A stretch of 64,000 nucleotides of DNA. It comes from Niallia sp. XMNu-256 (GTDB lineage Bacteria > Bacillota > Bacilli > Bacillales > Cytobacillaceae). The DNA is taken from NCBI RefSeq assembly GCF_036670015.1, contig NZ_CP137636.1:3574501-3638500 (forward strand). Direction: 5' to 3'. The notes below the pieces were generated by a model, which saw only the letters and a program-made list of their open reading frames with translations, had not been told where the DNA came from and ran no database searches. Position numbers and translations under genes: made by a program. Each line of letters begins with the position of its first letter. Position 1 is the first letter of the stretch. Below, piece after piece: positions 36,775-40,892 of the stretch.

Positions 36775-37608
36775 ATGAACATACTTGTCACATTGGATTC
36801 GCACTATTTGAAGCCTCTTCGTGTGATGTTGAAGTCTTTATTTTTCAATCATCAAGGAGAGCATTTTGACATTTATTTATTACACTCACGCATTAAGGAT
36901 GAAGAGATTACAGAGTTACAGAATTTTATTCATGAAGAAGGCCATGAACTCTTTGTTATAAAGATTTCAAATGATTATTTTAAAGATGCTCCGATTATTA
37001 AACATTATTCAAGAGAGATGTATTACCGTCTACTCGCCTTTCAATTTCTACCTTCCCATTTAGAAAAAATATTATATCTAGACCCGGATATCCTGATTAT
37101 TAATGAGATCCGATCCCTTTATGACATGGATATTAGCGAGTATATGTATGCGGCTGCCTATCATGACCGGGTTTCTGTAAAAGAAATCAACCGTCTTCGC
37201 CTATGGCCATACGAAATTGATGCTTACTTTAATTCAGGTGTACTTTTGATGAATTTAACTTCACATCGGAAAGAAATCGAGGTTGGGGAAATCTTTGACT
37301 TTGTAGCGAAAAATAAAAAGCGGCTTATCTTACCTGATCAAGATATCCTTAATGCTCTTTATTCCAAGAAAATAAAGCAGGTTGATGAAGTCCTCTATAA
37401 TTATGATCCTCGTTTTTTCCATTTTTATAAACTCGCTAGTGATGGGTTATACGATATGGATTACATTATCCATCACACGTCAATTATTCATTTCTGTGGA
37501 AAACGAAAACCGTGGCATAAGCAATACACGGGTAAATTCCAATCTCTTTATAAGCATTATGAAAGGCTTGCCTTTTCGGAAAGAATAGCAATGAACCCGG
37601 TTTCCTAA
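36775..37608 (+). CDS. Glycosyltransferase family 8
   Basis: Retaining sugar transferase of the LgtC/glycogenin type. It starts with MNILVTLDSHYLKPLRVMLKSLF, has the metal-binding DxD in ILYLDPDILIIN, AYFNSGVLLMNL, LPDQDILNALY and the C-terminal IIHFCGKRKPWHKQY. At 277 residues it is full length. The nearest good ribosome site (GAGGAGG) is about 16 nt from the ATG, longer than usual, and no better start is in frame, so translation may be weak or use another start. Confidence 0.9.
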   Translation: MNILVTLDSHYLKPLRVMLKSLFFNHQGEHFDIYLLHSRIKDEEITELQNFIHEEGHELFVIKISNDYFKDAPIIKHYSREMYYRLLAFQFLPSHLEKILYLDPDILIINEIRSLYDMDISEYMYAAAYHDRVSVKEINRLRLWPYEIDAYFNSGVLLMNLTSHRKEIEVGEIFDFVAKNKKRLILPDQDILNALYSKKIKQVDEVLYNYDPRFFHFYKLASDGLYDMDYIIHHTSIIHFCGKRKPWHKQYTGKFQSLYKHYERLAFSERIAMNPVS

Positions 37609-37626
37609 TGGAGCCGGGTTCTTTTT
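37593..37626 (+). terminator. Intrinsic terminator overlapping the GT8 stop codon
   Basis: An 8-bp perfect stem (37593-37600 / 37614-37621) is followed by TTTTTC. The stop codon lies in the loop. It also separates GT8 from the convergent HesB-like gene. Confidence 0.85.
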
Positions 37627-37634
37627 CTAAAGGC

Positions 37635-37907
37635 CTAGCAGCTGCTTCCGCTTAAAAAGGCGAAATTGCCACGTTCCTTTTTATAATCAAGGACTAATTC
37701 TCCTGTCCAACTTACCATTGTCGCATCCATCGCTACTTGAATTCCGTTAATGGTTTCAACATGATCCCCTGCTTGAGGCTCGTCCAGAGACACTCCAAAG
37801 TTGGGACCGCCTCAACCAAATCCTTTAAAATGAAGACGAATTCCAGGAAGCTTCTCTGACTGAATCAAAGAGATTAATTCATCCCTTGCTGTGTCTGTAA
37901 TTTGCAT
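37635..37907 (-). CDS. HesB/IscA-like protein with in-frame TGA, probable selenoprotein
   Basis: Read from ATG 37907 with AAGGGGAG 9 nt upstream, the frame encodes a 90-residue HesB/IscA-family protein and is interrupted only by TGA at 37812-37814 (codon 32). The text before it is MQITDTARDELISLIQ...HFKGFG and after it GGPNFGVSLDEPQAGD...SGSSC, ending at TAG. The TGA sits exactly at the Cys of the family CGGPxxG motif, a position where selenocysteine is known in HesB-like selenoproteins. A hairpin starting at the TGA (separate entry) fits a bacterial SECIS element. The last residue is Cys, another usual metal/cluster ligand. Alternatives are a recent nonsense mutation or a sequencing error. 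No selA, selB, selC or selD is in the window. Function is probably Fe-S or metal handling, or redox. Confidence 0.8.
37774..37814 (-). promoter_or_regulatory. SECIS-like hairpin beginning at the in-frame TGA
   Basis: On the minus strand TGAGGC (the TGA plus three bases) pairs with GCCTCA 29 nt later. Inside it GTCC pairs with GGAC, and a small GAG-TGT-CTC hairpin forms the tip, about 20 nt after the TGA. Stem size, tip distance and a GU-containing loop agree with the general bacterial SECIS model. The folding was done by eye. Confidence 0.5.
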
Positions 37908-38236
37908 TATAGCTTTCTCCCCTTATCAAATTATTCAACATTATATTATAGAGAATGGAGCTTTAAATAAAGGATTTTGCTCTGTCGCTAGAAAGAACCC
38001 TCTTTTTAGGATGCTTTGATTATATCCTTTTATTCAAATCGGGGGGTCACTGTGACGCCCCCTATTTCGACAATTTCCCGGATCTTTTCCCGGGAAATTA
38101 TGAGTTATTTCCCCTTGTTTCGAGGAAATATGTCTGAGTGCATGACAATTTCACCCCTGTTTATATCAGGAACTTCTATATCCTAATTTCATAAATTATA
38201 ATGAATCATTTTACTGAAGAAAGGTGGAATCCTGTG
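37908..38236. repeat. Spacer with palindromic intergenic elements
   Basis: No gene is seen. Two hairpin elements stand out: GGGGGGTCAC-T-GTGACGCCCCC at 38041-38062, and AATTTCCCGG / CCGGGAAATT at 38072-38099. The word GTCACTGTGACG also occurs at 35513, after the mrp operon, and a variant lies near 29170. The Hsp20 promoter must lie here; I saw no CIRCE element. Confidence 0.5.
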
Positions 38237-38689
38237 ATGAATCACGATCCTAAAAGAAAGGATCCTTTTTCCGAATTAATGAAGCCACTTGATGCCTTTT
38301 TTAATGAAAAGCCAGTGAAGGGTTTTTTGCAATCCATCGATCAGTTATTTAATAAACCATTTCCCTTCCAATCCTCTTTCCATGTCAAGACATCTGAAAC
38401 TGATTCTGAATATGTTTTGATGGCCGAACTACCTGGGGTGAAGAAAGAACAAATTAATATCGATGTATTGGAACGCTACTTAACGATTAGCGTACAAACC
38501 GAGGAGCAAATCATTACAGAAAATGACAAAGGAGAGATATTCAGCAAACAACAGTCATGGGGAAAATCAAGCCAAACGATTCCATTCCCACAGCCAATCA
38601 ACGTAAACCAAGTAAAAGCCTCTTATGAAAATGGACTGCTGCGAATTACAGTTCCAAAGAGGAAAGGGAAACAAGTTTACTTGGATTAA
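38237..38689 (+). CDS. Hsp20/alpha-crystallin family small heat shock protein
   Basis: ATP-independent holdase chaperone. The alpha-crystallin domain covers about residues 50-150 with YVLMAELPGVKKEQINIDV, LTISVQ and the C-terminal KASYENGLLRITVPKR (A-x-x-x-n-G-v-L family signature), preceded by a Phe/Pro-rich N-terminus. At 150 residues it is typical. ATG 38237 is chosen for AAAGGTGG at about 9 nt; the upstream in-frame ATG lacks a site. Confidence 0.9.
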   Translation: MNHDPKRKDPFSELMKPLDAFFNEKPVKGFLQSIDQLFNKPFPFQSSFHVKTSETDSEYVLMAELPGVKKEQINIDVLERYLTISVQTEEQIITENDKGEIFSKQQSWGKSSQTIPFPQPINVNQVKASYENGLLRITVPKRKGKQVYLD

Positions 38690-38726
38690 GTTACAGTTTT
38701 CTTGATAAATCTGGCACCTGTCAATT

Positions 38727-38757
38727 AATAGTCCGAAGTTGATAACTCCGGACTATT
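38727..38757 (+). terminator. Hairpin after the Hsp20 gene, probable terminator
   Basis: AATAGTCCG (38727-38735) pairs perfectly with CGGACTATT (38749-38757), 38 bp after the stop. The T tract is weak (ATCCTTATCTTCTT). Confidence 0.55.
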
Positions 38758-39194
38758 ATCCTTATCTTCTTACTCGTGCTGTCTTAAGCTGAACCGACTT
38801 CGAACCCTTCTTTTACGTTTTCTAACCTATGCTGTTTGAAGCTGATTAACTTCGAACACAACGATAATTCTCTTGGACTACCAAGTTTTAACAGTAGTAC
38901 TACCATATTTCAAGGTTCCTCGCTGTCTTTGGTGCTATTCAAACATAAAACTACCAAACTTCAGGATTCCCCTCAGTTATTGATGTTATTAAAAATAGTA
39001 CGATCTATTTCCCCTAATTCTCCTATTTTTAACCTAGGACTACTTCGGATCTATCCATCAGACTACTAAACCGCGTTTTCCAAAGTTCTCGAGGGTCCCC
39101 TAAGTATGCAATTCCCCAACGCCAATTTGTTTTCAGACAATTCAAAAGGTGATACAATTGCTCTTATGATATCTTGAAGGGTGTTGACCGTGGG
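38758..39194. repeat. Degenerate intergenic repeats between Hsp20 and EamA genes
   Basis: No convincing gene. Two similar blocks (38778-38805 and 38831-38857, both GCTGT-T--AGCTGA----ACTTCGAAC) lie about 52 bp apart. Further imperfect copies of CTACCA---TTCA-G follow to about 38990. The spacing matches the 52-bp array at 61.2-62.0 kb, so this may be a decayed relative. Confidence 0.4.
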
Positions 39195-40720: not shown

Positions 40721-40787
40721 CATTTTTTTAAGATTTGCCCAGGTAAATAATTGGACTTCTACGATTAAATACGTTGTTTATTTGAGA

Positions 40788-40892
40788 ATTGCACCAGATT
40801 GAGACGGAATTGCACCAAAATGAAGCATAATTGCACCAAATCGGGAATGAATTGCACCAGATTCACTCTTAATTGCACCTATTCCCATTTAC
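40788..40892 (+). repeat. 21-bp TTGCACC array A (five units)
   Basis: ATTGCACC begins at 40788, 40809, 40830, 40851 and 40872, an exact 21-bp period. Each unit is AATTGCACCA-A followed by about ten variable bases. The last unit reads AATTGCACCTATTCCC and is followed by CATTTACTAGG. Related arrays lie at 46592 and 54596. Confidence 0.85.

Follow-up and report, generated by a model that had tools for sequence, protein, structure and literature searches.

We predict that a small gene of Niallia sp. XMNu-256 encodes a selenoprotein, and we consider this very probable. The gene lies in a stretch of 64,000 nucleotides (contig NZ_CP137636.1, positions 3,574,501 to 3,638,500, assembly GCF_036670015.1), which we call the window. 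Its 90-residue product would resemble the A-type carriers (HesB/IscA-like), with selenocysteine (Sec) at residue 32, inserted under the direction of SelB and a hairpin in the mRNA. The evidence comes from sequence: the reading frame and its TGA codon, the machinery genes of the genome, a conserved hairpin with synonymous constraint, co-occurrence with selA, and the predicted fold. From these we infer that the organism inserts Sec at this codon.

The reading frame and the Sec machinery

On the minus strand, the frame runs from an ATG (37907..37905) to a TAG stop (37637..37635) and has 90 residues, including the TGA-encoded one. The TGA (37814..37812) is residue 32, and 58 residues follow, the last of which is Cys. 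With TGA read as U, the translation is MQITDTARDELISLIQSEKLPGIRLHFKGFG-U-GGPNFGVSLDEPQ...FLSGSSC. The original prediction had described this frame, broken only by the TGA and with a 58-codon tail ending in Cys; it is present as described, on a strand that the prediction did not state. A reading on the plus strand was rejected because of TAA stops in the same frame. In the table-11 list of open reading frames (ORFs; 50-amino-acid minimum), the gene appears only as a 52-residue fragment (37635..37793), which means that simple ORF calling would cut it short, much as had been foreseen. The ribosome site that had been claimed for the gene is also there. The main features are:

37635..37907, minus strand: predicted hesB-like selenoprotein gene (from the frame, Sec at 32, the relatives and the predicted fold)
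37812..37814, minus strand: TGA codon (putative Sec32) where IscA/HesB proteins have their first ligand Cys (from the frame and alignment)
37917..37924, minus strand: ribosome binding site AAGGGGAG, found by eye 9 nt before the ATG

The window protein has a HesB/IscA-like domain, and its predicted structure has an IscA-like fold. As originally proposed, the TGA falls at the ligand Cys of the family: in PDB entries 2apn, 1nwb and 1s98, the residue aligned with it is the Cys of GCSG, and the in-frame TGA at this conserved Cys gives the motif UxGP.

The machinery for inserting Sec, which the original prediction expected elsewhere in the genome, was located in the organism's own assembly (4.36 Mb, 99.74% complete):

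C1:191522: selA
C1:2158919: selB
C1:2181479: selD
C1:2246126: tRNA-Sec, anticodon TCA

We also encountered at least four further TGA-bearing genes in this genome, without an exhaustive search. selD itself has a TGA at codon 23 of its ORF; hesB2 (C1:2355702) reads MRIGUGGPQLRL; and two formate-dehydrogenase-like genes have a TGA before HAPSVAGL or HSSTVAGL.

We propose that the ribosome would translate 31 codons and then meet the UGA, that SelB bound to a hairpin 22-40 nt from the UGA would bring Sec-tRNA(UCA), and that Sec would be placed at residue 32, with translation continuing to a 90-residue HesB/IscA-like protein.

The hairpin after the UGA codon

A hairpin resembling the selenocysteine insertion sequence (SECIS) is clear across the relatives, and the window alone has five of the seven pairs:

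37775..37793, minus strand: SECIS-like apical hairpin GUGUCUC-UGGAC-GAGCCUC (5/7 pairs; 25 nt from the UGA to the start of the loop)
37774..37814, minus strand: wider fold, in which UGAGGC pairs with GCCUCA and the UGA is part of the lower stem (from fold prediction and alifold of the eight-member subclade described below)

Across 96 distinct TGA forms, the consensus is CUGGCUC-UGGAN-GAGCCGG, at 22-40 nt from the U of the UGA. (L089, L004, L054, L047, L090 and L134 are outside the distinct sets.) In these forms 648 of 672 cells are paired, as compared to 19-47% in controls with the partner slid along and 25 of 91 in 13 distinct Cys forms. The apex CTCTGGANGAG is exact in 93/96 TGA forms versus 0/13 Cys forms. 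An alignment of 21 rows has 93.2% of its cells paired, and its covariation score beats all 500 shuffles. A mutual-information scan placed the outer stem pair 22-40 second (C-G to G-C); its top pair is no base pair and neither are many of the others, as relatedness dominates this measure.

Synonymous codon choice is near-fixed at codons +7, +8, +9, +11, +13 and +14 after the UGA, and at most other codons it is 0.6-1.1 of that expected, with a few lower. It is also tight at codons -3 to -1 (GGC-UUU-GGC; ratios of 0.38, 0.25 and 0.16 in 105 TGA forms), which a downstream hairpin does not explain.

A covariance model built from the 21 rows, including the window's, found only one other place in the genome with E < 0.01: the TGA region of hesB2 (25.8 bits, E 0.0013), whose score owes part to the shared protein motif. 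The next hit had 14.3 bits (E 1.48; 150 of 1256 candidates were scored). An Rfam scan of 37600-38000 gave no hit that reached a family's gathering score; with E allowed up to 10, there were four weak, unrelated matches at chance level.

Relatives and alternative explanations

The window protein has a match in 144 of the 193 genomes of the host's family (own genome included), and at least 106 of the 193 have a TGA-bearing match among the matches listed (paralogue groups pooled). Among the matches listed, none of the genomes with a TGA form belongs to the set of 21 selA-less genomes (Fisher p 1.2e-8, uncorrected for kinship). These 21 are the genomes without selA over the cut-off, by E-value; two of these assemblies have a completeness of about 80%. 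When the 21 were searched singly, eight had a match, which in seven cases carries Cys (GQGCCGP, GAGCCGP or AGCCGP). With selA over the cut-off in 172 of 193 genomes, the statement that Sec use is patchy in Bacillaceae fails for the host's family.

We parsed 127 loci with a hit: 107 with TGA (including the window's, L043), 15 with Cys, and 5 set aside. (L053 and L004 gave no hit; L055 was taken as the same gene as L049, and its tandem copy with an inner TAA is outside the parsed loci.) All 107 TGA loci have the TGA at codon 32 of the frame as parsed, and the frame after it is conserved. A chance TGA is excluded because the relatives share it at codon 32.

The same loci bear on whether a nonsense mutation has cut short an otherwise ordinary HesB-like gene here. 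Broken copies do exist in the host's family: there is a remnant in genome G171 (see below), and L134 of the selA-positive G009 has TAA at codon 32 while its hairpin and downstream frame are intact, which is either a fresh loss or an assembly error. However, the conserved frame in 107 loci that share the TGA, the synonymous constraint at the hairpin, and the presence of the Sec machinery make a pseudogene very improbable. Less credible still is that the gene has an ordinary Cys codon and that 37812-37814 was misread in sequencing. The window gene belongs to a subclade of eight (L043-L046 and L056-L059; 98 by the Shimodaira-Hasegawa-like approximate likelihood ratio test), all with TGA; none of the seven other members has a Cys codon, and the hairpin region is conserved. 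Because independent species share the TGA, an error is very unlikely. We rejected both explanations on the grounds of conservation, machinery and hairpin. The original prediction had named a lack of selABCD together with TGC or TGT in close relatives as the case that would speak against it; what we found instead, a genome with the machinery and TGA in 7/7 of the other subclade members, supports a probable selenoprotein.

The UGA might mainly be a selenium-dependent switch, with the full-length protein made only if selenium is plentiful and a Cys paralogue serving at low selenium. The genome does contain such a paralogue (L051 at C1:1385584, motif AGCCGS), and a switch between Sec and Cys isogenes is described for Methanococcus maripaludis (PMC11097638). 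L051 groups with other Cys forms, however, and has an ArsA-type gene 19 bp upstream. With this grouping and position it is no obvious isogene, and we consider a switch unlikely.

A C-terminal Cys is present in 105 of the 107 TGA forms, mostly as Cys-Cys, so the Sec...Cys pair is likely to be the working site. In the window protein, Sec32 and Cys90 are the only candidate Cys/Sec ligands. In E. coli IscA, the cluster ligands are Cys35 with Cys99/Cys101; by analogy, Sec32 and Cys90 may bind an iron-sulfur (Fe-S) cluster or another soft metal, a metalloid, or a sulfane/selane group. A contact between the two cannot be judged from the model, as its residues 88-90 have a predicted local distance difference test score (pLDDT) below 50.

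We also considered a second, C-terminal Sec. The coding part ends at TGA in 20 of the 107 TGA forms, and in 16 it ends with Cys-TGA followed directly by TAA or TAG (L080, L081, L097, L101-L110, L116, L117 and L123); many other rows end with Cys-Cys-stop. We take this terminal TGA as probably an ordinary stop, because the frame past it is unrelated in L060, L120 and L159, and the near-identical rows L111, L112 and L119 lack it.

In the tree, 13 Cys and 101 Sec rows need three changes, and a single Cys clade is not rejected (p = 0.522 in the approximately unbiased test); the tree rests on 92 columns, and 54 of its 111 inner branches are open. Rows L089, L134, L054 (a hesB2-type TGA form from G002), L047 and L090 were dropped before the counts. 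L164 of the selA-positive G031 has TGT and a ruined hairpin, and is apparently a natural change from Sec to Cys with loss of the hairpin.

Several observations weigh against a selenoprotein of this kind. First, two of the seven pairs are mismatched in the window's own hairpin (U.U and U.C, shared by six of the eight subclade members; L045 and L046 have all seven pairs). Its wider fold is at -16.5 kcal/mol with a z of -1.89, and 9 of 200 shuffles are as good. Across the alignment, just one of the seven pairs changes on both sides (CG in 15, GC in 5), a number that 417 of 500 shuffles reach. Second, the Cys forms of selA-less genomes are mostly in clades separate from the TGA forms, which implies that they are paralogues and not in-place replacements. 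Third, the selA-less G171 keeps a TGA copy (L089) with a perfect hairpin. Its match is limited to residues 24-86, with no recognisable N-terminal part in the three frames printed. L089 looks like a decayed TGA copy that retained its hairpin in a genome with no selA, as a trace of lost Sec use. Fourth, one genome of the five in the genus, G003 (88% complete, selA present), lacks the TGA form and has a 29% match only; the other four have it.

Fifth, none of the 13 relatives found outside the host's family has TGA, in a scan whose patterns had Cys at the site, and which thus favours Cys forms and says little about TGA there. Nine (from Desulfosporosinus and a Peptococcaceae metagenome-assembled genome) have Cys, as TGT or TGC, and four from Anoxybacillus (L030, L033, L034 and L041) have neither Cys nor TGA. 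(Alignment A1 took 9 of the 13.) The Anoxybacillus proteins, with no ligand residue, resemble a carrier turned to another task.

Finally, the window protein scores below the cut-offs of the relevant models: 48.3 bits against a curated 66.35 for TIGR01911 (HesB_rel_seleno), short of strict membership; 41.6 against 85 for NF038090 (IscA_HesB_Se); and 25.8 against a gathering cut-off of 26.3 for PF01521 (Fe-S_biosyn), which hesB2 passes with 39.2. Because of the TIGR01911 score, we file the protein as a divergent relative and not under the strict model: it is a divergent new member of the known kind of HesB-like selenoproteins.

Gene neighbours, significance and known systems

In the window, the hesB-like gene is stand-alone. 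The features around it are:

37940..37967, minus strand: promoter-like TTTAAA-16-TATAAT (weak; one found versus 2.5 expected by chance)
37593..37621, plus strand: terminator-like stem of 12 pairs, with a T run on the plus side, between the hesB-like gene and its convergent glycosyltransferase neighbour
36775..37608, plus strand: glycosyltransferase family 8 gene, convergent to the hesB-like gene
38201..38689, plus strand: HSP20 gene, divergent from the hesB-like gene

The HSP20 neighbour is also found beside L045 and L046, two relatives from the same genus. After the HSP20 gene, 38726-38758 holds a 15-nt inverted repeat (93% complementary, 3-nt loop) that is perhaps its terminator. Farther away, 40787-40891 contains about five head-to-tail 21-nt units starting with AATTGCACC, at a spacing of 21.

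We compared the neighbours of 38 loci, which are partly near-copies of each other. An ArsA-type ATPase lies 7-19 bp upstream of two TGA forms (L066 and L073) and of the genome's own Cys form L051; Pfam confirms the assignment on the L073 copy. We also note an ArsA-type gene 584 nt from L049, with L050, L055 and L077 in the same homology group, so that both TGA and Cys forms occur near such genes. Downstream, mainly in one genus, there are genes of a rhodanese group at 12 loci (the longest member is a TusA-rhodanese protein), of a CsoR-type repressor at 9 and of DsrE at 3. An ArsR-type regulator follows L060 and L079, and in the own genome a CsoR-type gene precedes hesB2 by 64 nt, with both on one strand. 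The window gene has no neighbour of the ArsA, CsoR or rhodanese type.

These neighbours hint at the task of the HesB-like proteins, as a lead only. Because paralogues adjoin ArsA-type, CsoR-type, rhodanese/TusA and DsrE genes, the HesB-like selenoproteins of the host's family could be Sec-armed carriers of metalloids or of sulfane/selane groups, and not general Fe-S factors, with the window gene as a stand-alone member. We offer this tentatively and would not bet on it, although it does suggest a testable role.

That HesB-like selenoproteins are an established family, as the original prediction had it, is borne out by the literature. They were listed in 2006, when Firmicutes/Bacillales had three selenoproteins in all (PMC1794560); a 2016 survey of over 5200 organisms gave 90 of them in 86 organisms (PMC5029168); they were listed again in 2022 (PMC9312934); and a 2026 review gives their motif as UxGP (PMC13188914). 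Mutagenesis together with 75Se labelling revealed one such protein in Methanococcus maripaludis; the same paper calls its function unclear (PMC11097638). In the part of the Bacillaceae selenoprotein literature that was covered, we recognised no description of this gene group. HesB-like TGA genes in at least 106 of 193 genomes of this one family stand against the 90 proteins in 86 organisms of the 2016 survey. Plain gene callers cut such genes short, as seen for the window gene, and the hairpin offers a ready SECIS signature for the family.

Among known systems, the best NCBIfam match of the window protein is TIGR01911 (E 1.2e-12). Both are small single-domain proteins with TGA at the conserved Cys, and U-G-G-P fits UxGP; the window's own protein family has in addition a conserved C-terminal Cys and the hairpin, and its aligned members are 39-60% identical to the window protein. 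All 16 members of alignment A2 match NF038090 at E ≤ 0.001 (row L131, which starts 7 residues too early and has its end cut, was retained in the comparisons). Relative to the IscA/SufA carriers (PF01521; PDB 1r94, 1s98, 2d2a, 2apn and 1nwb), the window protein would have Sec in place of Cys, and it has a terminal Cys instead of the C-x-C tail. DsrR of Allochromatium vinosum, which acts in sulfur oxidation, is 19% identical (PDB 2k4z). A bacterial SECIS, such as that of E. coli fdhF, is a coding-region hairpin that follows the UGA. The hairpin of the window family is alike in lying after the UGA and within the coding region, with a loop G about 25 nt downstream, but differs in its loop, UGGAN, on a stem of CUGGCUC/GAGCCGG.
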